Assembly (NCBI RefSeq): GCF_029871245.1
Contig: NZ_SSON01000050.1
Span: forward strand, 1 to 64,000
Reading direction: 5' to 3'
DNA: 64,000 nt
DNA from: Pseudomonas sp. BN102
GTDB taxonomy: Bacteria > Pseudomonadota > Gammaproteobacteria > Pseudomonadales > Pseudomonadaceae
Shown here: one piece after another, positions 37,960 through 48,791 of the stretch
Position numbering within the stretch: position 1 is the stretch's first letter
Layout of the letters: the number at the start of each line of letters is the position of its first letter
The notes under the pieces: model-generated
Databases searched by the model: none
Told to the model about the DNA's origin: nothing
What the model saw: the letters and a program-made list of their open reading frames with translations, nothing else
Translations under genes and position numbers: made by a program

Positions 37960-39120
37960 CTACTTCACGATGGCCAGCTCGAAGGAACCCTGGTCGGCGT
38001 GCTCGTGCACCTGCATGCCCGACTCGCTCAGGGCCAGGTCCTGCAGGGGGCGTTTGAAGGGCTTGTTGTCCAGGGTCTGCAGGCTGCGGTCCTCGTTGGT
38101 GGTGAGCAGCAGCACATAGCGTTCGCCCTGGTTGGCGCGGACCTGCACCGTGCCTTCGATATAGGCGTAGCGATACCAGGTTTCGCCGTGCAGTTGGTAG
38201 ACGGCGTCGCTCACCAGGCGGGTCGGGCGCTTGGCGTCGTCGAGGAACAGCAGCGAGGGATAAACCACCTGGCGGTTGGCGAAGCTGCGAATGCGCAAGC
38301 CGTAGCTATGCTGCGAGCGCGGCAGCTTGAGGGCGCTGTAGTAACTCCGGCCCATGGGGAAATCGAAGCTGGGGGACAGGTTGTTCAACTCCTCGAAGCG
38401 CGGCTCCTCGGCCGAGACCTCAGTGAAGGCGTCGTCCGCCAGTTGGCCGCAGCAGCGGTCCACCAGGCTCTGGTAGAGGGCCTCGCCACGCTCCTCGCTG
38501 CCTTCGAGCAAAGCCTTCATGGCGGCGCTGGGTTGGCCGTCCAGGGAAGGCAGCAGTGCGGCCTTGCGCTTGAACTCCAGTTCGCGGCTCTCGGTGTAGG
38601 CGATGGGGCCCGGTCCTTGAGCGTCGCTGCCCTGCTCCCGGCCACGCGCCGGCACCGGTGAGTTGTGGGTGCGGCCCTGTTCATCGACCCAGGTGAAATA
38701 GGCCGGCCCCTGTTCCGGTCGGGAATAGCCGCGCCCTTCCAGCACGTCGGCGTCTATGTACTCGGCCGAACGCTGGCCATTGGGCAGGACGAAATCGCGC
38801 TGGCCCGACTCCACCTGGCCGGCGGCGTAGAAGCTGTTCTGCAGGTTGCCGCTGGCGTCCACCCAGGTGAAGTAGCGCCGCTTGCTCTCGCCACTGGTTT
38901 GGCTGCCGGGCCAGCGGGTGCCGTCGTCATCCTGCAGGCGCGCCTGGTCGCTCTGCGCGATGCGCTTGGCGGCCTGGCGCTGCTGCTCGCTGTAGCGGCC
39001 GTCGACGAAGGTGTTGTGTACCCGGCCCTGGTCGTCGATCCAGGTCAGGTAGCGACCGCTGGTGGCCTGGGCGGCGCCGGTAAGGGTCAGGGCGATGAGC
39101 AGGATGGGCGCTTTCATCAT
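37960..39120 (-). CDS. MalM-domain protein with three YFTWVD repeats, last gene of fil-like cluster
   Basis: A 386-residue exported protein with a signal peptide (MMKAPILLIALTLTGAAQA). Residues 24-154 contain three copies of a short motif, YLTWIDDQGRVHN (24), YFTWVDASGNLQN (83) and YFTWVDEQGRTHN (141), like DUF4124 units. The C-terminal half from about residue 215 is of the MalM type (FPMGRSYYSALKLP, YRYAYIEGTVQV). The start overlaps the stop of the FadL-like gene by one base. It resembles proteins annotated as pilus-system FilE in Acinetobacter; that link is from memory. It probably acts in the periplasm or at the outer membrane. Confidence 0.75.
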   Translation of the reverse strand: MMKAPILLIALTLTGAAQATSGRYLTWIDDQGRVHNTFVDGRYSEQQRQAAKRIAQSDQARLQDDDGTRWPGSQTSGESKRRYFTWVDASGNLQNSFYAAGQVESGQRDFVLPNGQRSAEYIDADVLEGRGYSRPEQGPAYFTWVDEQGRTHNSPVPARGREQGSDAQGPGPIAYTESRELEFKRKAALLPSLDGQPSAAMKALLEGSEERGEALYQSLVDRCCGQLADDAFTEVSAEEPRFEELNNLSPSFDFPMGRSYYSALKLPRSQHSYGLRIRSFANRQVVYPSLLFLDDAKRPTRLVSDAVYQLHGETWYRYAYIEGTVQVRANQGERYVLLLTTNEDRSLQTLDNKPFKRPLQDLALSESGMQVHEHADQGSFELAIVK

Positions 39121-40712
39121 CAGAAGGTCGTCTGGTAGGTCAGGGCGAGGATGTAGGCCTTCACCGAGGTCTCGACGTTCTGGCCCGCGTAGGGGTTGTA
39201 GACCAGGTTGTCGATGCCGGTGCAGTTGAGGTTGCAGCTGCTGTCGGCCTTGGTGCTCTGCCTGGAGGTGAAGTAGTTGAAGCCGATGTCGATGTTGGTG
39301 TCCTTGTCCCAGCGGTAACCGAGACCCAGGCCGTAGAGGTGGGCATCGCCTATGGGCGCGAGCACATCGGCCTTGTCGTCGGGGATGGCCGAGGGGCGCC
39401 ATTCGTAGCCGGCGCGCAGGGCCAGCCGGTCGTTCCACTGGTACTGCACGCCCAGGGCCCAACTCCAGGTATCGCGGTAGCCACGGTCGAGGATGATGCT
39501 GGTATCGGTGGCCTTGCCGCCACCGAAGGTCTTGGCGATGCGCAGCAGGTCCAGCTCGCGGTCGAACTCGATCTCGAACTCGTTCCAGTCGCTGTAGCCG
39601 CTCCACTTCAGGTCGACGTTGACCTGCCAGCGTTCGGAAGGCTTGAGCTTGATGCCGGTGGAGAAGTTGTCCGGATAGGTCATGTCGAGGGAGGCGTTGC
39701 CAGATTCTTCGTCGACATTGCCGTAAGGGAATATCGGGCTCAGCACCTGGCCGAACAACGAGGATTGCAGGCCGGACCAGAAGCCCTGCCATTGCTGGCT
39801 GTAGTCGACCCGGTACTTGCCCTGCAGGTGCATGCGCGCCTCGCTCTGGTAGGTGGCGCCCCAGGCGAACCAGTCGGTGGGCTCCCAGAGCACGCCGATG
39901 TTGTAGGTAGGCGACAGCGACTGCTGCAGGTCGAGATCCATATTGGCGAGGCTGTCGAAGGGGCCGATCTTGCCGCCGCAGACGTTGATCAGGCCGGACA
40001 CTACTTCGCCCATCCCCGGCAGGCAGAGGAACTCGTTGAATAGCCGGGTCAGGCCGGTGAGGAAGCCCGGGTTGCGGAAGTCCTGGTTGAGCGCCATGGC
40101 CTGGTGGGAGAAACCGATCGACAGGCCCAGCGCCAGCTCGTCGTTCATCTGGTAGCCCACCGAGGGCGAGAAGTAGGTGATGCGCTGCAGGGCCACTTCA
40201 CGTCCCTGGTAACGCGCCGGGTCGCTGTCCGAGTCCCGCGAGTAGCCCAGGGCCATGGGCGCGTAGACGTTGGTGGCGAAGGTGAACTTGGAGCCCGGCG
40301 GGTTGATCGAGAGCCCGGCCAGCGGCGCGAAGAGCACCGGCACCTCGGTCATGCCGCCCATGCCGGGCAGGTACATGGCCGGGGTCATGGTGCGGCTGCT
40401 GGAGTTCTTCACCGGATCGTCGTCGTAGCCGAGGAAGCCGTAGTCCTCCGGCGCCTCGAATCGGGCGCGGATATCCATCACCCCGGTGAGGAGCTTCACC
40501 GTGCTCTGGCGACCCTTGAGCTTGGTCAGGGCGGCCGGGTTGTAGTGCACGGCGTCGATCCCGGAGGAATCTGCCGTGACGGCGTTGGCCATTGCCATGG
40601 CCTTGGGGTTGCCGATGGTCAGGTCGTTGGCCAGTTGCGCCTGGGCCAGGCCCGCCCAGCACAAGCCGACCCCGGCAATCGCCCGCGCAAGCGGCGACAG
40701 TTGCATGCTCAT
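39120..40712 (-). CDS. FadL/OmpP1-family outer-membrane protein of the fil-like cluster
   Basis: A 530-residue barrel with a signal peptide ending AGLAQA and the FadL-type N-terminus (ANAVTADSSGIDAVHYNPAALTKL, with the NPA motif). It ends in the aromatic LTYQTTF. It is longer than fatty-acid FadL and carries two Cys pairs in loops (CLPGMG...NVCGG and CNLNC). FadL proteins let hydrophobic molecules cross the outer membrane; the cluster context suggests it may instead serve the secreted small protein. It is 18 bases after the next barrel gene. Confidence 0.85.
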   Translation of the reverse strand: MSMQLSPLARAIAGVGLCWAGLAQAQLANDLTIGNPKAMAMANAVTADSSGIDAVHYNPAALTKLKGRQSTVKLLTGVMDIRARFEAPEDYGFLGYDDDPVKNSSSRTMTPAMYLPGMGGMTEVPVLFAPLAGLSINPPGSKFTFATNVYAPMALGYSRDSDSDPARYQGREVALQRITYFSPSVGYQMNDELALGLSIGFSHQAMALNQDFRNPGFLTGLTRLFNEFLCLPGMGEVVSGLINVCGGKIGPFDSLANMDLDLQQSLSPTYNIGVLWEPTDWFAWGATYQSEARMHLQGKYRVDYSQQWQGFWSGLQSSLFGQVLSPIFPYGNVDEESGNASLDMTYPDNFSTGIKLKPSERWQVNVDLKWSGYSDWNEFEIEFDRELDLLRIAKTFGGGKATDTSIILDRGYRDTWSWALGVQYQWNDRLALRAGYEWRPSAIPDDKADVLAPIGDAHLYGLGLGYRWDKDTNIDIGFNYFTSRQSTKADSSCNLNCTGIDNLVYNPYAGQNVETSVKAYILALTYQTTF

Positions 40713-40730
40713 GAGGTACTCGCTCGCCGG

Positions 40731-41735
40731 TTACTGGGCCTTGAGGCCCTTGATGTCGAGAGGCACGGAGAGCCCCAGGAGTACGTCCGGTGAATCCTCG
40801 GTCATGCCGAAGCCGGCGTTGACGTTGACGATGTAGTCAGGCGACGTCCGCAGGCCGAGGGAGAAGTTCATGATCGAACTGGTCTGTTCGGTGCCCTCCA
40901 GGTTGTCGTTCTCGAACCTGTAGGTAGGCGCCATGCTGTAGGCCATCTGGTAGGAGGTGGCCAGGGACACGTCGTAGGACAGCGCGTAAGCGAAGCCCAT
41001 GCTGAAGTTGATCGTGTCGCCCGGCTCCACGTCTTCCAGGATGCGCCCGCCGCGCATCTGGTGGATGTCGTGCACCGGCATGTTGTAGGTGTACCCGACC
41101 GAGCCGAACAGCACGACCGGGTCGATCACGTAGGACATGTTGGCGCCGACGCCCAGGCTGTAATAGCCGCTGCCGGTGGACAGGTCATTCTCGGAGTTGA
41201 TGTCGTACGGGCTCTCGCCGGTGGGCAGACCGAGGGTGGCGAAGAGCGTGGTGACCGGGCGCCCGCGGGTGGAGGACCAGGGCTGCCAGCGCAGGGAGGC
41301 GGAGATGTCGCCGAGGCTGTAGACGTTGAGGTCGCGCTCGGTGTCGTACTTGGCGACGAAGGGCAGGCGCACGCTGAAGGTCAGGTTGTCCCACACCCCG
41401 TAGTCGAAGGTGAAGGAGTTGGTGAAGGTGTGCTGGGCCTCACTTTGGCTGAGCACGCTGTAGACGTTGCTGCCGGTGCGGAAGGTCTCGATCTGGGTGT
41501 CGCGCACCTGCGAGTAGTCGAAGCCGTAGGTGAGCGTGCGCTCGCCCTTCTTCAGCAGCGTGTAGCTCTTCTCCGATGCCTGGAAGACTTCCTCCAACGC
41601 CTTGGCGCTGTCGGCGTCGTCCTCCTTCTTGCTCAGCGCGTCACGCGCGTCTTCCACCGAGGCTTCCTCGGCTTGCAGCGGCAGACTGGTACAGAGCACC
41701 AGCATGGCCAGCCATGCGTATTCCCTTGGTCCCAT
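40731..41735 (-). CDS. Outer-membrane beta-barrel with N-terminal helical segment (FapF/FilC-like position)
   Basis: A 334-residue protein with a signal peptide ending PLQAEEA. A charged helical stretch follows at residues 25-60 (EDARDALSKKEDDADSAKAL) that may form a short coiled coil, then regular amphipathic strands (LTYGFDYSQVRDTQ onward) to residue 334. The strand half resembles the transporter barrels of the phenol-pathway type. The plan of helix plus barrel recalls FapF, the amyloid exporter, but is shorter; I could not see sequence identity. It lies 37 bases after the C39 gene. Confidence 0.72.
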   Translation of the reverse strand: MGPREYAWLAMLVLCTSLPLQAEEASVEDARDALSKKEDDADSAKALEEVFQASEKSYTLLKKGERTLTYGFDYSQVRDTQIETFRTGSNVYSVLSQSEAQHTFTNSFTFDYGVWDNLTFSVRLPFVAKYDTERDLNVYSLGDISASLRWQPWSSTRGRPVTTLFATLGLPTGESPYDINSENDLSTGSGYYSLGVGANMSYVIDPVVLFGSVGYTYNMPVHDIHQMRGGRILEDVEPGDTINFSMGFAYALSYDVSLATSYQMAYSMAPTYRFENDNLEGTEQTSSIMNFSLGLRTSPDYIVNVNAGFGMTEDSPDVLLGLSVPLDIKGLKAQ

Positions 41736-41772
41736 GGTGCTATCCCCAGGCCTTTCTTGTTATGTGCGGGTG

Positions 41773-42534
41773 TCACTTGCGGCGGATGTAGCGGATATCG
41801 CCCCCCGAGCCGAGTTCATCGATTTCGTTCTCGGTGAATTTGGTGATCTGCGGAAATGTCTGGAACGCCAGCAGGCTGACGGTGCGATCGTCCACCAGGC
41901 GCAGGTCGCGCTCGGTCAGGGCCATGGCGTTCTGTGGTTCGTTGCCCGAAGGGAAGATCACGAAGAGGACGTTCTGGTCCCAGATTTCCCCGAAACGGGC
42001 ACGGGTGAAACTGATGTTGCCAAGGGCGGGGTCGGCGACGAACACATGGTCGTTGTAGACATCGCGCACCACCACGAAATGTTTGAAGCCGCCATAGTGG
42101 ATCGGAACGATGGCCGGGTGCTCCAGGGCGTCGAGGTCGCCGAACTCGGCACGGAAGCCGCCGCTCTTGTAGCCCAGGGCACTGACGAAGCGCTTCATGT
42201 CGAGCAGCGAGAAACCACGGCGCTCGACGATCTTGTCGGCCTCGCCGTAACGCAGCAGGCCTTCCATCACCTGGCGCTCTTCCAGGTTGCGGCCCAGGTA
42301 GTAGTCCAGCATCGTGGTCAGCGCGGCGGAGCCACAGCTGTAGTCATAGGCCTGGCGGATGACGTTGCGGAATTGCAACTGGCTCATGGGCTCGACCACC
42401 GCCGTTTCGCGATAGGGCCCGTTGGGTGAAAGCGGCTGGCTGATATTCACCGCGCCTTGCGGCTGCGGCTTGGTATCCACCGCCTGGGTGAAGCCGAACA
42501 GACCCAGCAAACTGCCAACCAGGATTTCGATCAT
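41773..42534 (-). CDS. C39-family cysteine peptidase-like protein (FapD/FilB-like)
   Basis: A 253-residue protein with a hydrophobic N-terminal segment, then a full peptidase C39 core. It has Gln61 and Cys67 in QAYDYSCGSAALTTML, His152 in GGFKHFVVVRD and Asp168 in VFVADPA, so the catalytic set appears intact. C39 peptidases cut double-glycine-type leaders, and the amyloid operon fap has a comparable FapD. Here it probably processes or escorts the small secreted protein encoded just upstream. A stable hairpin separates the two genes. Confidence 0.82.
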   Translation of the reverse strand: MIEILVGSLLGLFGFTQAVDTKPQPQGAVNISQPLSPNGPYRETAVVEPMSQLQFRNVIRQAYDYSCGSAALTTMLDYYLGRNLEERQVMEGLLRYGEADKIVERRGFSLLDMKRFVSALGYKSGGFRAEFGDLDALEHPAIVPIHYGGFKHFVVVRDVYNDHVFVADPALGNISFTRARFGEIWDQNVLFVIFPSGNEPQNAMALTERDLRLVDDRTVSLLAFQTFPQITKFTENEIDELGSGGDIRYIRRK

Positions 42535-42562
42535 TGCCGTTCCGACTACAGGGCTTGCGGGG

Positions 42563-42595
42563 AAAGACCCCGTCGGCAGGAGCCGACGAGGTTTT
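42563..42595 (-). other. Hairpin between the FilA-like gene and the C39 peptidase gene
   Basis: CGTCGGC (42571-42577), a 4-base loop and GCCGACG (42582-42588) form a 7-bp GC-rich stem 30-50 bases after the FilA-like stop. Read on the minus strand it is followed by GGGTCTTT, a poor T run. It could be a weak terminator or an RNA-processing site that lets the secreted protein be made in excess of the downstream machinery. Confidence 0.55.
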
Positions 42596-42620
42596 CCGGG
42601 TTACAGGATGAACGCGGCTA

Positions 42621-43073
42621 TCAGTGGCCCCAGACCTTGATGGTGGAACCGGACATGTTCATGTTGTTGACGGCCAGGGAACCGATGCTGGCGGCGCTCG
42701 CGTCGCCGACGCGGATGGCGCCGACGGCGAGCTGGCCGGTGATGGCCGGCAAACTGATCTGCAGCTTGTCGTTGCCGCCGGCGCCACCGTCGATGACGTC
42801 GATCTTCAGCGGGTCGCTGTCGAGGATGTCGAAGCCGGTGAAGGAAATGGTTTCCAGGCGCAAGGTGCCGGAGGTGGTGGTGCCACCGGTGGTTTCGGAG
42901 TCGGTGTAGACCACGCTGCCGATGCTGCCGTTGAAGCTGCCGGAGATGCTGATGCCGTCCTGGCCGGTCACACCGGACAGCGCGGAATCGTCCATGGCCC
43001 GAAGGTCGGCCTGGGCCATGAAGGGAGCAGCGAGTACAGCAGCAGCCAGAGCCAGTTGTTTGAAGCTTTTCAT
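42621..43073 (-). CDS. Small secreted DUF6160/FilA-like protein
   Basis: A 150-residue protein with a signal peptide (MKSFKQLALAAAVLAAPFMAQA). It then has LRAMDDSALSGVTGQDGISI, the motif typical of DUF6160/FilA proteins of Acinetobacter and relatives. The rest is Gly/Ser/Thr/Asp-rich, with short alternating strands and no Cys, as in fibre-forming or beta-solenoid surface proteins. GGAG lies 10-11 bases before the ATG at 43073. It is the first gene of the five-gene cluster and directly follows two LuxR regulators. FilA proteins have been called pilus-system components; direct function is unproven. Confidence 0.8.
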   Translation of the reverse strand: MKSFKQLALAAAVLAAPFMAQADLRAMDDSALSGVTGQDGISISGSFNGSIGSVVYTDSETTGGTTTSGTLRLETISFTGFDILDSDPLKIDVIDGGAGGNDKLQISLPAITGQLAVGAIRVGDASAASIGSLAVNNMNMSGSTIKVWGH

Positions 43074-43305: not shown

Positions 43306-46017
43306 TCAGGCCTCACTCAGAAGACCCAGGCTCTTCCCTTTCAGTACCGCCTGGGTGCGGCTGCGCACGCCGAGCTTGGCGAACAGGTTGTGCAGGTGCC
43401 ACTTGATGGTGGCTTCCGACAGGTGCACCGCCTGGGCGATATCGCGGTTGGAAAGACCGGCTGCGACATAGCGCAGGATCTCCCGCTCACGATGGCTAAC
43501 GTCTTGATTTTCATCGAAAGTATCCGGATCAACCGAGAGCCGGCGGCACTGTTCGCGAAGGCTTTCGGCCACCCCCTGCCAGGCGCTGGCGCGCTTCGGC
43601 TCGGCGGCGCGCCAGGCGTCCCAAAACGGCAGCAGCCAAAGTGCGTCGTCCTGGAACAGCCGGCGGTAACCACGGTTCCAGGCTTCTTCCAGGGTGTTCT
43701 GGAACAAGGCGAAGGCTTTCTCGCTGTTACCTCTGCGCCAATACGCCACAGAAAGTAACAGCGACAGGCGTAGCCGCCGGTCGCGTTGATGCTCGTCCTG
43801 CTGTCGCGCCAGGCAGTTTTCCAGACTGGCCTGGGCCCGCTCCGGGCGCCGCTCGCTGAGGGCCAGGTGGGCTTCGGTCAGGGCCAAGGCGGTATGGGCA
43901 TCGGCGTAGCGCGCCAGCGGCAACACGGCCAGGTGCTGCTGCAATTGCAGGCAGATGCGCTCGGCCTCGTTGGGCCGCCGCAGCCAGAGCAGGAACTGCA
44001 CCTTGCAGGCCATGCCATGGGCGAACACCCGTTCGTAGCCGGCACCCTGCAAGCCAGCCAACCATTCGTCGAGCTGGGCCAGGGCCTGCTCCGGCTCGCC
44101 GGCGAAGAAGCGCGCCCGCGCCATCACCAGCTGGCCGCGGCTGATCAGCTCTACCGGCGTCGCCACATCGCGCCAGGTGGTGGCCAAGGGCAGCTCGGCG
44201 AGAATCGCCGCGTGGCGATCCTGTTCGTAGAGCAGGTCGGCATAGGCCAGGGCCAAGGGCCCGCCCACCCGGCTGCGCCGGCCGAACACCCGCTCGACCC
44301 GCGCCCGCGCGGTTTCGGCGATGGCACGGCCGCGCTCCAGCTCGCCGCTTTCCTTGCAGATCAGCGCCTCGATCAGGCTGGTCATTACGTGCAGGTATTC
44401 GCTGTCCACCAGCTTGAGGTTGTCGCGGGCCACGGCTATGGCCTTGGCCGCTTCGCCGAATTCGCCCATCAGCGCATAGGCCGCGGCCTGCACGCAGGCC
44501 AGGCTGGCACGGAACACCGGCTGGCTGTCCGGCACCATGCCGAGCCACTGGCGGGCGACCTTGAGGCAGGCCTCCAGCTTGTCCTGGTAGAGCATCACCA
44601 GCGCCTTGAGCACCTGGGACGCGGCCAGCAGTTCGCCGAGGCCGAAATGGATCACTTTGCCGCGTCCCTGCAGGAGGCGCGTATTGACTTCCTCGATCAG
44701 CGCCTCGGACTCAGCGAAGCGCTGCTCGAAGGCCAGCTGCCAGGCATAGAAGATCTGGAACACCGGATGCTCGCGGATAACCTCGGCCGGTACCGCCTTG
44801 AGCATGGAGAGGATGCCGTAGACCCGGTTGCCGGCGATCAGCCGCGCGCCCTGGCGCTCCAGCAGCTCGGCGGCGAAGGCAAAGTCGCGGCCGCGCAGGG
44901 CGTACTTGATGGCACGGTCCGGCAGGTCGCGGCCTTCGCACCAGCGCGCGGCGGCATGCAGCAGCGGCGTCGCGTCGGTCCGGCGCAGCAACCGACCCTG
45001 GAGGAATTCGGCGAACAGGTGGTGGTAACGGAACCAGTCGCCCTGCTCGTCCAGGGGAATGACAAAGAGCTGCTCGCGCTGCAGGCGCATCAGCATGTCG
45101 AGGCCATCGCGGCGGCCGGTCAGGGCATTGCACAGGTCGGCGCAAAACTCGTCCAGCACCGAGGTCTGCTCGAGGAACTGCTGCAGCGGTTGCGGCAGGC
45201 TGTCGAGCACGTCCTCGGTCAGGTAGTCGGCGATGTCGCGCTCGGTGCCGCTGAGGCTGGCGAGGAACGCCGCGCGGTCGGGATGTCGCGCCAGCGCCAG
45301 GCTGGCCAGGTGCAGGGCGGTGATCCAGCCCTCGGTACGGGTGTGCAACTGGCGAATCTCGCCAGCGGACAGCTGCAACTGGCGGACCTCGCGGAAGTAG
45401 GCTTCGGCTTCCTCCAGGGTCAGACGCAGGTCTTCGGCCTTGAACAGCAGCGACTCGGCCTCGCTGAACAGCAGACGGGGGGTGTAGCGCGTGCTGCTGA
45501 CCAGGTGCACCCGCGGCGGCAGGTTCTCGATCAGGTAGCGCGCGCCCTGGTCCAGGGCGACATGGCGGATGCGGTGGAAGTCGTCGAGCATCAGGTAGAG
45601 CTCGCCCTCGATGCGCTTGAGGTCGCCGACGAAGGCATCGATCACGGCTTCGATGGGCCAGTTCACATCGCCCTGCAACAGCCCCACGGTATTCCCGCCG
45701 AACCCCGGCAGGGCCGCATCCACCGCGGCCACCAGGTACTGCAGCAGGCGCTGCGGCTCGCTGTCGGCCTCGTCGCAGGACAGCCAGGCGACGTGCGCGC
45801 CCTCGGCCTGCAGGTGCTGGCGGAACAGACTGAGCACCGTGCTCTTGCCGAAGCCGGCCGGGGCGCTGAGGATCAGCACGCGGCGGTCACGGGCGGCGAG
45901 CAGGCGCTCGATCAGGGCGCGGCGCGGCAGCAGCGGGCGGCCCCCTGCATCGGCCGGGAACAGTTTGGTGCGCAGCAAGGGAATCTGGTGCGGACGGGAC
46001 AGGCAGAGATCGGTCAT
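43306..46017 (-). CDS. MalT-like LuxR-family transcriptional regulator (second of pair)
   Basis: A 903-residue signal-transduction ATPase. Near residue 52 is Walker A (APAGFGKST), then a Walker B-like LYLMLDDFHRI near residue 140. A winged-helix and TPR-like helical middle follows, and a C-terminal LuxR helix-turn-helix (REREILRYVAAGLSNRDIAQ, then ATIKWHLHNLFAKLGVRSRT). This is the MalT/AlkS architecture, activated by a small inducer and ATP. Its start overlaps the stop of the preceding regulator by 4 bases. It lies just before the FilA-like gene. Confidence 0.92.
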   Translation of the reverse strand: MTDLCLSRPHQIPLLRTKLFPADAGGRPLLPRRALIERLLAARDRRVLILSAPAGFGKSTVLSLFRQHLQAEGAHVAWLSCDEADSEPQRLLQYLVAAVDAALPGFGGNTVGLLQGDVNWPIEAVIDAFVGDLKRIEGELYLMLDDFHRIRHVALDQGARYLIENLPPRVHLVSSTRYTPRLLFSEAESLLFKAEDLRLTLEEAEAYFREVRQLQLSAGEIRQLHTRTEGWITALHLASLALARHPDRAAFLASLSGTERDIADYLTEDVLDSLPQPLQQFLEQTSVLDEFCADLCNALTGRRDGLDMLMRLQREQLFVIPLDEQGDWFRYHHLFAEFLQGRLLRRTDATPLLHAAARWCEGRDLPDRAIKYALRGRDFAFAAELLERQGARLIAGNRVYGILSMLKAVPAEVIREHPVFQIFYAWQLAFEQRFAESEALIEEVNTRLLQGRGKVIHFGLGELLAASQVLKALVMLYQDKLEACLKVARQWLGMVPDSQPVFRASLACVQAAAYALMGEFGEAAKAIAVARDNLKLVDSEYLHVMTSLIEALICKESGELERGRAIAETARARVERVFGRRSRVGGPLALAYADLLYEQDRHAAILAELPLATTWRDVATPVELISRGQLVMARARFFAGEPEQALAQLDEWLAGLQGAGYERVFAHGMACKVQFLLWLRRPNEAERICLQLQQHLAVLPLARYADAHTALALTEAHLALSERRPERAQASLENCLARQQDEHQRDRRLRLSLLLSVAYWRRGNSEKAFALFQNTLEEAWNRGYRRLFQDDALWLLPFWDAWRAAEPKRASAWQGVAESLREQCRRLSVDPDTFDENQDVSHREREILRYVAAGLSNRDIAQAVHLSEATIKWHLHNLFAKLGVRSRTQAVLKGKSLGLLSEA

Positions 46018-48791
46018 GGTTCGAGCAGCCCCAGCTCGCGGGCACGCCGGATCGCCTGGGTCCGGTTACGTACCTTGAGCTTTTCGTAGATGTTGTGCAG
46101 GTGCCACTTCACGGTCCCCAGCGCCAGGGCGAGCTGGTGACCTATCTCTTCGTTGGACAGCCCCTTGGCGGCGAGGCAGACCACCTCGCGCTCGCGGTCG
46201 GTGAGGCCTTCCTCGAGCACATCCTGGGACTTGCGCGCGTCCTGCCCCGGCCAGGCCGCCAGCAGGTCGCGGATGAAACCCTGCAACGCCGGCTGCCGCT
46301 CGGCCGCCTCCAGTTGCTGGAGCAACTGGCGAATGGCGTCGCCCTCTTCGATGAAGAGGCTGCGCACCCCTTCGCGCTCGGCGCTGAGCAGGCACTGCAC
46401 CAGCAGGCTCTGGGCCCGCTCCTGGTAGCCCAGGCGCTGGTAGCTGAGGGCCGCCAGCAGGTCGAGGCGCAGACGCAGCAGGCCGTGCCAGTTGGGTTGC
46501 AGCTTGCCGCGCAACTGGCTGATCTCGTGCAGCGCTTCGCTGAAATGGCCGCGGGCCTGCTGCAGACGCACGCGGATCAAGCCCTGCACCCAGAGCGCCG
46601 AGTTGGCGCCGTGCTGGCTGCCACCTCCGGCCAGCTTGTTCCAGTCCACGCCCTTGAAACGCTGCTCGGCGCGCTTGACGCGATCGGCGCCCGGTTCCTG
46701 GAGGATCAGCGATATCTCGTCGGCCACCGCCCGCGCGTAGTAGCGCCAGGACTGGTTGCGCGCGGCGAGATTCTGCATCAGCACCAGGGTGGCCTGGGCT
46801 TCCTTGGGCTTGTCGTGCATGCGCTGGATGCGCGCGAGGAAGAGCATGCCCCGGGCGTAGATGTCGATGGGACGGATGACGTCGATATGGGTCAGGGCGG
46901 CGGCCAGGCGTTCTTCCAGGCCGGCGAGGCGGCCCTGCTGGTAGGCGATCAGGGATTCGACTATCACCGGCAGCGCCATGGCCCGGGACTTCTCGCCGAG
47001 TGCAGGCATGACCTGGGCGCGCATCTGCTCATAGAGCTTCTGCGCCTGCTTGACCTGCCCCTGCTCCAGCGCCAGGAGGATTTCCACGTTGGCCAGTTGC
47101 ATGTCCAGGTAGCGGCCTTCGAGAAAGTGGTTGCGCTGCTGGGCCAGGGCCAGCAGGCGTCGGGCTTGCCCCGGCTGGACAAGGGCCACCTGGGCCATGG
47201 CGCCGATCACCAGGATGGCCACTTCGAGGAAGGCCTGGTTGCGGCCGAGCTGGGCCTCCACCCGGCGGGCGATGGTCACGCAGAGGTCCAGGTCGTCCTT
47301 CTGCAGGGCGATGGCGGCCTTGACCGCCAGGGTGGCCAGGTACTTGTCGCTCAGTTGGGTTTCGGCACGGGCCCCGCCCCAGCGCTCCAGCAGCTCGTCG
47401 AGCATCCGGTTGGCTTCCGGCAGGGCCATTTCCGTAGCGCGGTTCCAGACATCGGCCAGTATCAGGGTCGGGTAACGCTCGGCGATCTCGTCCGGCACCT
47501 TCTGCCGCCAGCGGTAGATCTTGTTCAGCTGGCCGCGGTTGATCAGGTCCAGGCCGCAGCCGTCCACCAGGGCGGCGAGCATCTCCGGGTCTTCGGCGAG
47601 GCTTGCGTGCTCGATGGCGAGGTTCTGCATGTGGTGGTTGGTGAACCACAGGCTGGCGTTGAAGTGCAGCTGCTTGAGGCGCTCCGGGTCGCTGGCCTTG
47701 AGGCGGCCGCGGAGGAAGTCGGCGAACAAGTGGTGGAAGCGGTACCACTGGCGCTCACGGTCGAGCGGCAGGAGGAACAGCTGCATGGTTTCCAACTGCT
47801 CCAACAAGGCCTGGCCGTCGTGGCGGCCGATCAGGGCATTGGCCAGGTCGCCGCTGAGCTGGCTGGCGATGCCGAGCGCCAGCAGGGCGTCCTGCAGTTC
47901 GGCGGGCAATTGTTCGAAGACGCTCGCCAGCAGGTACTGGCCGACCGTGGCCTGGTCGCAGCCCAGGCGTTCCATCTGCTCGGCGGCCTGGGGCTGGTGG
48001 CGCAACCAGAGGCTCGCCAACTGCACCCCAATCGCCCACCCTTCGGTATGGCTGTGCAGCGCCGCCAATACAGCATCATCCAGTTGCAGGCCGGAGCGGG
48101 CCAGGTAGTCACGGGTTTCTTCGGCGGAAAGGCGCAGCTCGTCGAGGCCGATCTCCAGCAGCCAGCCCTTGGCCCGTAGGGTGGCCAGGCTGAGCGGCGG
48201 CAACGAACGGCTGCCGACCGCCAGGCTGAAGCTGGCCGGGGCCAGGCGCACCAGCCGGCCGAGGGCGGCGTAGAGTTCCGGGTCCTTGATCAGGTGCAGG
48301 TCGTCCAGCACCAGCAGGAGCGGGCCGCTGTGCCGGGCAAGATCCACCAGCAGGCTTTCCAGCACGGCGTTGACCGGCACCTGCATGGTGTTCTGCAGGT
48401 AACCCCGGGCGTAGTCGCCCAATCCGGGCACGGCTTCGCCGAGGGTCTTGATCAGTTGCTGGAAGAAGCGCGCCGGGTCGTCGTCCTCGGCTTCCAGGGA
48501 GAACCAGGCGACGGCGCTGCCGGCGGCACGGCGCTGTTCGGCCAGGGCCGCCAGGGCGGTGGTCTTGCCGAATCCGGCCGGGGCCGAGAACAGCAGAAGA
48601 CGAGCATGGGGATGGGCGGCCAGTGCGGCCTGGACCTGGGGCCTGGGCAAGTAATCGGCTGATGCCTGGGGGGTTACGAGTTTGGAGCGCTGACGGCTAC
48701 CGGCTGCGGGGTTGAGAACTGCGTCCACTGCCTGAATCCCTATGTCGTTATCGTTGTGGAACGGAGGTACATCTCCGTGGGATTTATCCAT
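46014..48791 (-). CDS. MalT-like LuxR-family transcriptional regulator (first of pair)
   Basis: A 925-residue paralogue with the same plan: Walker A SAPAGFGKTTAL near residue 70, Walker B LLLVLDDLHLIKDPEL near residue 160, a long helical repeat middle and a C-terminal LuxR helix-turn-helix (DREREVVCLAAKGLSNEEIG and VKWHLHNIYEKLKVRNRTQ). It has about 45 extra N-terminal residues before the ATPase domain; the start ATG at 48791 has AGGA only at long spacing, so it could be shorter. It is divergent from pabB, with 101 bp between. Confidence 0.9.
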   Translation of the reverse strand: MDKSHGDVPPFHNDNDIGIQAVDAVLNPAAGSRQRSKLVTPQASADYLPRPQVQAALAAHPHARLLLFSAPAGFGKTTALAALAEQRRAAGSAVAWFSLEAEDDDPARFFQQLIKTLGEAVPGLGDYARGYLQNTMQVPVNAVLESLLVDLARHSGPLLLVLDDLHLIKDPELYAALGRLVRLAPASFSLAVGSRSLPPLSLATLRAKGWLLEIGLDELRLSAEETRDYLARSGLQLDDAVLAALHSHTEGWAIGVQLASLWLRHQPQAAEQMERLGCDQATVGQYLLASVFEQLPAELQDALLALGIASQLSGDLANALIGRHDGQALLEQLETMQLFLLPLDRERQWYRFHHLFADFLRGRLKASDPERLKQLHFNASLWFTNHHMQNLAIEHASLAEDPEMLAALVDGCGLDLINRGQLNKIYRWRQKVPDEIAERYPTLILADVWNRATEMALPEANRMLDELLERWGGARAETQLSDKYLATLAVKAAIALQKDDLDLCVTIARRVEAQLGRNQAFLEVAILVIGAMAQVALVQPGQARRLLALAQQRNHFLEGRYLDMQLANVEILLALEQGQVKQAQKLYEQMRAQVMPALGEKSRAMALPVIVESLIAYQQGRLAGLEERLAAALTHIDVIRPIDIYARGMLFLARIQRMHDKPKEAQATLVLMQNLAARNQSWRYYARAVADEISLILQEPGADRVKRAEQRFKGVDWNKLAGGGSQHGANSALWVQGLIRVRLQQARGHFSEALHEISQLRGKLQPNWHGLLRLRLDLLAALSYQRLGYQERAQSLLVQCLLSAEREGVRSLFIEEGDAIRQLLQQLEAAERQPALQGFIRDLLAAWPGQDARKSQDVLEEGLTDREREVVCLAAKGLSNEEIGHQLALALGTVKWHLHNIYEKLKVRNRTQAIRRARELGLLEP

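Follow-up and report, generated by a model that had tools for sequence, protein, structure and literature searches.

The five genes filA to filE, located at positions 37960-43073 on the minus strand of a 64,000-nucleotide stretch of Pseudomonas sp. BN102 DNA (contig NZ_SSON01000050.1, positions 1 to 64,000; the window), probably form an export locus that is related to the Fap system and acts in trans for leader-bearing proteins dispersed over the genome. The locus encodes a small DUF6160 protein (FilA), a C39-type peptidase (FilB), a FapF-like outer-membrane barrel (FilC), a FadL-family protein (FilD), and a MalM/DUF4124 protein at the filE position. In a wider form, to which the sequences at hand lead us to give about even chances, this reading would describe a periplasmic second-leader code comprising a Sec signal followed by a C39-type leader, a stand-alone C39 peptidase (FilB for leaders ending in GQ, FapD for leaders ending in GR or GK), and an export barrel of the FapF type; one locus would serve up to more than 12 unrelated surface proteins, and the leader of FapE would be the missing target of FapD. 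A Fap-related system composed of a machine, a leader, and dispersed substrates appears to be a stronger result than a cluster devoted to FilA alone, as the original prediction for this DNA had it.

DUF6160 proteins were found together with FilB and FilC. In a sample of 274 genomes from across the class, six had FilC matches of at least 198 bits, all others being at or below 88 bits, and six had FilB matches of at least 211 bits, the next match scoring 130.5 bits. DUF6160 (threshold, E of 1e-3) was detected in exactly the six FilB- and FilC-positive genomes and in none of the 268 others; five of the six exceeded the Pfam cutoff for this family, and the co-occurrence of FilC and DUF6160 extended over five families of the class sample. 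Among 178 Pseudomonadaceae, 48 encoded FilC (at least 287 bits), and DUF6160 was present in all 48 versus 1 of the 130 genomes without FilC. Pseudomonadaceae with FapF only provided a natural control, in which 35 of 36 genomes were devoid of DUF6160. We also surveyed the loci of the best 80 of 497 confirmed FilB relatives, which are not a random sample because they were selected by their similarity to FilB from genome G155. For 24 of these loci, picked for spread, the genome was searched, and all 24 had DUF6160 matches above the cutoff (1 to 12 each). Eight loci had no leader-type open reading frame (ORF) near filB, and all eight genomes nonetheless encoded DUF6160 proteins; in five of these loci the contig extends at least 6 kb upstream of filB, the contigs of L132, L188, and L207 being shorter. 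No FilC or DUF6160 match was obtained in genome G063, in which seven short ORFs resembled C39 proteins and scored 54 to 60 bits against FilB.

Most DUF6160 genes were not neighbors of filB in the four single-contig genomes of the genus that were analyzed (G003, G009, G014, and G017), since 18 of the 22 matches were located far from that gene, and one member of the class had 17 DUF6160 matches. In the source genome, DUF6160 proteins are encoded at three places (filA, contig 30, and contig 65), and the two contigs other than that of filA encode at least five more proteins carrying this type of leader. Contig 30 encodes one DUF6160 protein of 185 residues, in which, as in FilA and the contig 65 proteins, the leader motif follows a signal-like start at once. 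Contig 65 (L054:4718-9728, G000) contains a tandem run of four leader proteins of 774, 202, about 341, and about 347 residues; the protein of about 341 residues, which is under the Pfam DUF6160 cutoff and has a leader ending in GA, stands outside the 77 motifs counted below. No barrel or C39 gene was recognized by eye among the nearby listed ORFs. The run adjoins a gene read as leuA (2-isopropylmalate synthase), and DUF6160 clusters with ORFs of comparable size are found repeatedly in the genus.

The regions that follow the leader were compared for 17 proteins of G155, G268, and G027, including 7 of the 15 DUF6160 matches of G155 and 7 of the 17 of G268 (those fetched as loci), and similarity (E of 1e-3) was detected in 2 of 136 pairs. 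For the same proteins, mean pair identity was 48% over 12 leader residues and 7% over the 12 residues starting at position +4. Extension to 30 proteins from six genomes gave 6 similar pairs out of 435. Since the post-leader parts are mostly unrelated, the leader is not a conserved domain but a tag borne by different proteins. Thus, at the level of sequence, the leader was shown to be shared and portable.

The N-terminus of DUF6160 comprises the leader [M/L]-D-D-x-x-L-x-x-V-x-G-Q directly after a Sec-type signal (signal peptides were judged by eye or with regular expressions throughout), the general form of the leader being [M/L]xDxx[L/M]xx[V/I]xGQ. From 133 proteins (58 DUF6160 genome hits plus the leader hits from FilB loci), the search pattern retrieved the motif in 130, corresponding to 81 distinct motifs, 77 of which passed the score. 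The composition of these 77 motifs, in part imposed by the search as described below, was M (51), L (24), V (1), and I (1) at -12; D (56), E (10), and N (9) at -10; L (64) and M (13) at -7; V (56), I (8), A (6), T (6), and L (1) at -4; G (77) at -2; and Q (73), R (2), and E (2) at -1. In many members, conservation runs beyond GQ as (A/D/G)-G-I-S. The leader has the register of C39 leaders (hydrophobic residues at -12, -7, and -4; Gly at -2), although Gln occupies position -1.

In the window, all five ORFs were confirmed, and Pfam supported the DUF6160, C39, FadL, and MalM assignments of the original prediction: FilA matched DUF6160 (7.4e-27), FilB matched Peptidase_C39 (1.6e-19), FilD matched Toluene_X/FadL (2.3e-106), and the 386-residue protein matched MalM (1.9e-27) and DUF4124 (6.1e-08). 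The Pfam scan of FilC gave no family above the cutoff. The features are as follows.

42621..43073, minus strand: filA-like gene (150 residues), with a Sec-type signal at about residues 1-22 (by eye), the leader at residues 27-38, a part that is beta-rich in the model, and the C-terminus KVWGH
42960..42995, minus strand: C39-type leader motif of FilA, MDDSALSGVTGQ (-12 to -1), with a cut predicted after Q38
42624..42638, minus strand: C-terminus KVWGH of FilA; the unlinked C30 paralogue ends in the same residues, and FilA proteins across Pseudomonas have similar ends
41773..42534, minus strand: filB (253 residues), C39 peptidase whose N-terminus includes a hydrophobic segment
42334-42336, 42079-42081, and 42031-42033, minus strand: FilB catalytic residues Cys67, His152, and Asp168, respectively
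42190..42222, minus strand: FilB residues 105-115, RRGFSLLDMKR, tentatively aligned with the part of PCAT1 that binds the leader (putative groove)
40731..41735, minus strand: filC (334 residues), FapF-like outer-membrane barrel preceded by a conserved N-terminal segment
39120..40712, minus strand: filD (530 residues), FadL/TodX-family outer-membrane protein (Pfam, NCBIfam)
37960..39120, minus strand: filE position (386 residues), signal-like start, DUF4124 and MalM domains
43306..46017, minus strand: MalT-like LuxR-family regulator; 46 of the 80 FilB loci have a homologue nearby
46014..48791, minus strand: second MalT-like LuxR-family regulator; 44 of the 80 FilB loci have a homologue nearby

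The two regulator genes precede the five ORFs, and the next minus-strand gene past the filE position matches LplA-B_cat (Pfam) and is lipoate-ligase-like. The near-zero spacing proposed originally describes the last three junctions (about 37 bp, about 18 bp, and a 1-bp overlap) better than filA-filB, which are separated by about 86 bp. The reported Cys67, His152, and Asp168 of FilB are all present. In the AlphaFold model of FilA, a helix spanning residues 2-36 stops just before GQ and is followed by strands; the best match of this model in the PDB had an E value of only 1.4. FilA matched the DUF6160 and FilA families only, and no Fap subunit family, in the Pfam and NCBIfam scans. Many leader proteins have a conserved C-terminus, which was (K/R)(V/I)WGH in most Pseudomonas FilA proteins and, in Alcanivorax and Thalassolituus, ...(I/V)(S/T)G(H/K/R) for the most part; it was not seen in the short G155 and G268 leader proteins compared. 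The conserved C-terminus of leader proteins is possibly a second signal. The MalM-domain protein (37960-39120) contains three repeats of the form Y(L/F)TW(I/V)Dx(Q/S)GxxxN(S/T), one of which is matched by DUF4124.

The gene cluster was conserved in other genomes, as the original prediction required. In the 80 FilB loci, FilC was found nearby in 79, FilD in 74, FilE in 48, and a leader-type ORF inside the fetched flanks in 72. The single locus without FilC nearby, L187, lies at a contig end. In all 70 loci having a leader ORF, FilB, FilC, and FilD, the four genes lay on one strand in the order given, and the leader ORF was at most 300 bp upstream of filB in 58 of the 70. Six loci were devoid of FilD: L134, L187, and L202 end at a contig edge, and L132, L133, and L136 contain no FilD despite 5.8 to 8.8 kb of sequence past FilC. 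The genomes of the latter three still hold 7, 12, and 2 DUF6160 matches, respectively, and FilD was therefore ruled out as a core component. Absence of FilE was scored in 32 loci, some of which are cut by contig ends, with a profile built from two proteins (that of the window and that of G024, the latter without a Pfam match) and with matches of 19 to 34 bits counted as absent. One such weak match, in an uncultured Alcanivorax, scored 1.6e-4 for MalM, below the cutoff, and a Kistimonas protein at the filE place scored 8.5e-20. FilD and FilE look accessory, and the minimal unit is FilB plus FilC (L132, L133, and L136, and also G155). In G155 (L127:916-11030), filB-filC are located between a pilMNOPQ-like operon and pilT/pilU-like ATPase genes, as read by eye. 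The hosts included Pseudomonas (among them P. aeruginosa PA7), Alcanivorax, Thalassolituus, Oleispira, Kistimonas, a Moraxellaceae metagenome-assembled genome, and one betaproteobacterium, Ideonella oryzae.

FilB is likely to be a periplasmic, membrane-tethered leader peptidase. The equivalents of its catalytic Cys, His, and Asp, as well as Gln61, were invariant in all 80 relatives. The nearest structures to the AlphaFold model of the G155 FilB were the peptidase domains of ComA and PCAT1, including the leader-bound entries 6mpz and 6v9z. The PCAT1 leader has the consensus L-12, E-8, L-7, G-2, G-1, with specificity set at -4; its helix, from -10 to -4, occupies a groove, and L-12 and L-7 pack with A55 and I59 into a hydrophobic knot (PMC6959990). 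In a profile alignment, residues A55-I59 of PCAT1 fell opposite the FilB segment RRGFSLLDMKR, tentatively, as the placement crosses gaps. Eight of the 11 positions of this segment were invariant in the 80 FilB sequences, and its GFSLLDMKR part is largely common with FapD. Comparison of FilB columns with those of FapD (31 loci, 7 distinct FapD sequences) revealed no interpretable change in the S1 pocket. Co-occurrence, motif register, and homology lead us to infer that FilB recognizes the leader.

Both FilB and FilC are related to Fap proteins: in NCBIfam, FilB matched FapD (3e-34; 118.2 of 330 bits) and FilC matched FapF (1.5e-18; 66.9 of 700 bits), both below the cutoff, and a six-member FilC profile including the window protein retrieved the four FapF sequences of solved structure (about 1e-24) and a single further chain (0.002). 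We searched 25 loci with FapF or FapD for ORFs having a downstream FGV motif. Ten FapE-like proteins were found (two of them, in L064 and L067, from the same genus and nearly identical), and all ten carried the leader [VLI]x[DES]xx[LM]xxxRG[R/K], in which the third of the three x residues before RG varies. The search pattern was present in none of 157 other signal-like ORFs, drawn from loci of named genomes as background. The fetched flanks of the other 15 loci contained no FGV-motif ORF, and two of these loci (L017 and L066) encoded a FapE with a variant FG motif and the leader. NCBIfam (E up to 10) identified FapE in 10 of 11 fragments, and one of the 11 matched a lantibiotic family (0.052). 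Of the 12 leaders, 9 had R at -1 and 3 had K. This difference, Q with FilB and R or K with FapD, is as expected if the peptidase reads position -1. In the report by Rouse et al. (PMC5557850), the FapD active-site mutation C38A abolished FapC secretion, establishing that the Cys is essential; the target of FapD was described as unclear, with FapE as a suspected substrate, and no peptides were obtained from the first ~70 residues of FapE. The leader of the G001 FapE precursor ends at residue 42, which is no more than compatible with these data. Proteins of 112-115 residues with signal-like starts, a similar leader (e.g., VADSELNHSRGR), and no FapE body are encoded at fap-like loci L123:1033-1374, L125:1014-1361, and L122:355-693. 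Among the matches listed in the open-access literature, the accessible text described neither a DUF6160 leader, nor FilB specificity, nor cleavage of the FapE leader.

Together, these observations suggest the following pathway. Substrates would cross the inner membrane by Sec, and signal peptidase would strip the ordinary signal, as judged from the N-termini by eye, leaving the second leader, [M/L]xDxx[L/M]xx[V/I]xGQ, near the new N-terminus. FilB, probably membrane-tethered, would dock the leader helix in the groove used by cytoplasmic C39 peptidases and probably cut after G-Q, the predicted site. The freed chain may then exit through FilC, based on its homology to FapF and the near-constant FilB-FilC pairing. 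FilD and FilE might, speculatively, contribute to surface capture or periplasmic handling. The version of the leader with R or K in place of Q would mark FapE as the likely FapD target by the same logic. The substrates, dispersed over the genome, would be surface proteins and are probably beta-rich. If this scheme is correct, DUF6160 is an address label rather than a domain of unknown role, sequence is enough to list the surface or secreted substrates of the route in hosts such as Pseudomonas (with P. aeruginosa PA7), Alcanivorax, Thalassolituus, and relatives of the Moraxellaceae, and an unexplained "putative pilus system" becomes a testable export pathway.

Several observations weigh against this scheme. 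At -1, C39 leaders have Gly or in some cases Ala, and at -8 they have Glu; here Q occupied -1 in 73 of 77 motifs and E occupied -8 in only 9 (A in 38, S in 10, and D in 8), and A or T replaced a hydrophobic residue at -4 in 12. The authors of the PCAT1 study ascribed double-glycine specificity to a very narrow cleft (PMC6959990), so that Gln at -1 would call for a different S1 site in FilB. The leader fractions were partly imposed, because the pattern restricted positions -12, -7, -4, -2, and -1, permitting only Q, E, R, and A at -1 and G, A, and V at -2, because the score rewarded G and Q, and because the sequences were drawn with the DUF6160 profile or the leader profile. Three of the 133 proteins were outside the pattern (two with M or F at -4), 4 of the 81 distinct motifs were low scoring and excluded from the counts, and the L102 leader ends in VAQ. 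A search of PDB sequences with the leader profile found two matches, both phosphoribosyltransferases, and no C39 substrate. The models are modest (mean predicted local distance difference test score of 68 for G155 FilB and predicted template modeling score of 0.44 for FilA). All DUF6160 matches of G027 were under the Pfam cutoff, and the single FilC-negative exception in the Pseudomonadaceae, G001, encodes one below-cutoff leader protein with a motif ending in GR. The Fisher p-values of the co-occurrence, 1.8e-12 for the class [1/C(274,6)] and 6e-43 for the Pseudomonadaceae, are descriptive, since they ignore shared ancestry. Finally, among 30 leaders, Pfam identified DUF6160 in 28 and otherwise gave six single weak matches (0.023 to 0.22), namely, Mersacidin (0.18) for one leader and five unrelated families (0.023 to 0.22), and the NCBIfam bacteriocin-signal and ribosomally synthesized and post-translationally modified peptide (RiPP) models matched weakly 2 (best E of 0.059) and 1 (0.088) of the 30, respectively. 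Unrelated Pfam families thus reached scores equal to or better than those of the bacteriocin-signal matches. Bacteriocin, RiPP, Mersacidin, and lantibiotic peptides carry C39-type leaders, and the matches to these families are weak hints toward C39-leader peptides.

The leader could instead serve for docking and stay uncut, with FilB acting as a C39-like chaperone or gate that passes leader chains to FilC. The Gln at -1, which departs from the double-glycine cut site of PCAT1 (PMC6959990), and the conservation past GQ, as if (A/D/G)-G-I-S belonged to a single element, would suit such a role; the invariance of the catalytic Cys, His, and Asp and the preceding Gln in 80 of 80 FilB proteins and the loss of FapC secretion in the FapD C38A mutant (PMC5557850) make it rather unlikely. 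We give still less credit to a secretion route or surface fiber specific for FilA, other DUF6160 proteins being unrelated paralogues. The kinship with FapF and FapD suits a fiber system, and a leader ORF flanks filB in 72 of 80 loci, at a distance of 300 bp or less in 58 of 70; against this stand the presence of DUF6160 in 24 of 24 FilB genomes versus 1 of 130 genomes without FilC, the distant location of 18 of 22 matches in single-contig genomes, and the eight genomes that have leader proteins without a leader ORF near filB. The proposal that the locus is dedicated to the FilA-like protein is not supported, given the at least five further leader proteins of the source genome and the 17 matches of one class member. 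Its companion, that FadL and MalM parts set the locus apart from fap, is not supported either, as FilB and FilC are relatives of FapD and FapF and the parts in question look accessory.

A periplasmic envelope-stress or lipid-handling module is likewise improbable. In this view, FilD would import or export hydrophobic molecules that are bound by FilE and the leader proteins, and the barrels would not be protein exporters. FilD belongs to the FadL family and MalM is periplasmic by family name, and PA1764 is presumably filD. PA1764 was grouped with the FadL proteins of P. aeruginosa (PMC6137939). L132, L133, and L136, however, are without FilD after several kilobases and their genomes have DUF6160 matches, and FilC matches the protein exporter FapF. 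Least probable of all is that vertical descent alone accounts for the co-occurrence, the leader being the N-terminal piece of an old domain family unlinked to FilB: presence does cluster by genus, but FilC and DUF6160 genes, distant ones included, are jointly missing from some members of genera that otherwise possess them (e.g., G002 and G006 in the genus of the window), the co-occurrence spans five families of the class sample, and the post-leader regions are mostly unrelated.

The description of the cluster as a conserved set combining a C39 protein, a FapF-like barrel, and a secreted, predicted beta-rich protein, resembling fil and fap, is borne out, but the cluster is not undescribed, since FilA to FilD are already named in NCBIfam as a "putative pilus system" (NF050077-NF050080). 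The window shares the FilA-FilB-FilC-FilD order of that system. E values for FilA, FilB, FilC, and FilD were 1.5e-16, 1.6e-85, 7.8e-102, and 1.6e-159, and the scores were all below the cutoffs (60.7 of 220, 286.9 of 475, 341.4 of 630, and 531.7 of 970 bits, respectively). The window proteins, being under every Fil and Fap cutoff of NCBIfam, are therefore homologues rather than members by the NCBI rule. The window differs from the Fil system by the MalM/DUF4124 protein at the fifth place and the lipoate-ligase-like gene next to it. Genome G024, of the same order as the source genome, has four FilA-like genes followed by FilB, FilC, FilD, and two more. The NCBIfam names presumably stem from the A. 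baumannii fil operon, and we take PA1759-PA1765 and PA3793-PA3794 to correspond to these genes. The fil operon of A. baumannii comprises six genes (PMC4751259). Pfam and NCBIfam scans of the five window genes revealed no pilin, usher, pilus chaperone, or ATPase, and a pilus was rejected for want of such parts.

With the double-glycine peptidases PCAT and ComA, FilB shares the C39 fold, the catalytic residues, and the -12/-7/-4/-2 register of the leader. Unlike them, it is a stand-alone protein (253 residues, C39 domain only) without the parts of an ATP-binding cassette transporter and is predicted to be periplasmic, and its leader sits behind a Sec-type signal and ends in Gln. PEP-CTERM/exosortase sorting and the C-terminal domain sorting of the type IX system rely on one machine that handles many dispersed substrates bearing a short homologous C-terminal tag. 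PorV of the type IX system is FadL-like, and FilD matched the PorV family of NCBIfam weakly (8.6e-08, below the cutoff). The fil tag differs in being N-terminal rather than C-terminal, and the peptidase in being of the C39 type rather than a sortase. Fap is similar in three respects, the resemblance of FilB to FapD, that of FilC to FapF, and the same spacing in the FapE leader; relative to Fap, the window adds FilD and FilE, its leader ends in Q rather than R or K, and its substrates are dispersed over the genome.

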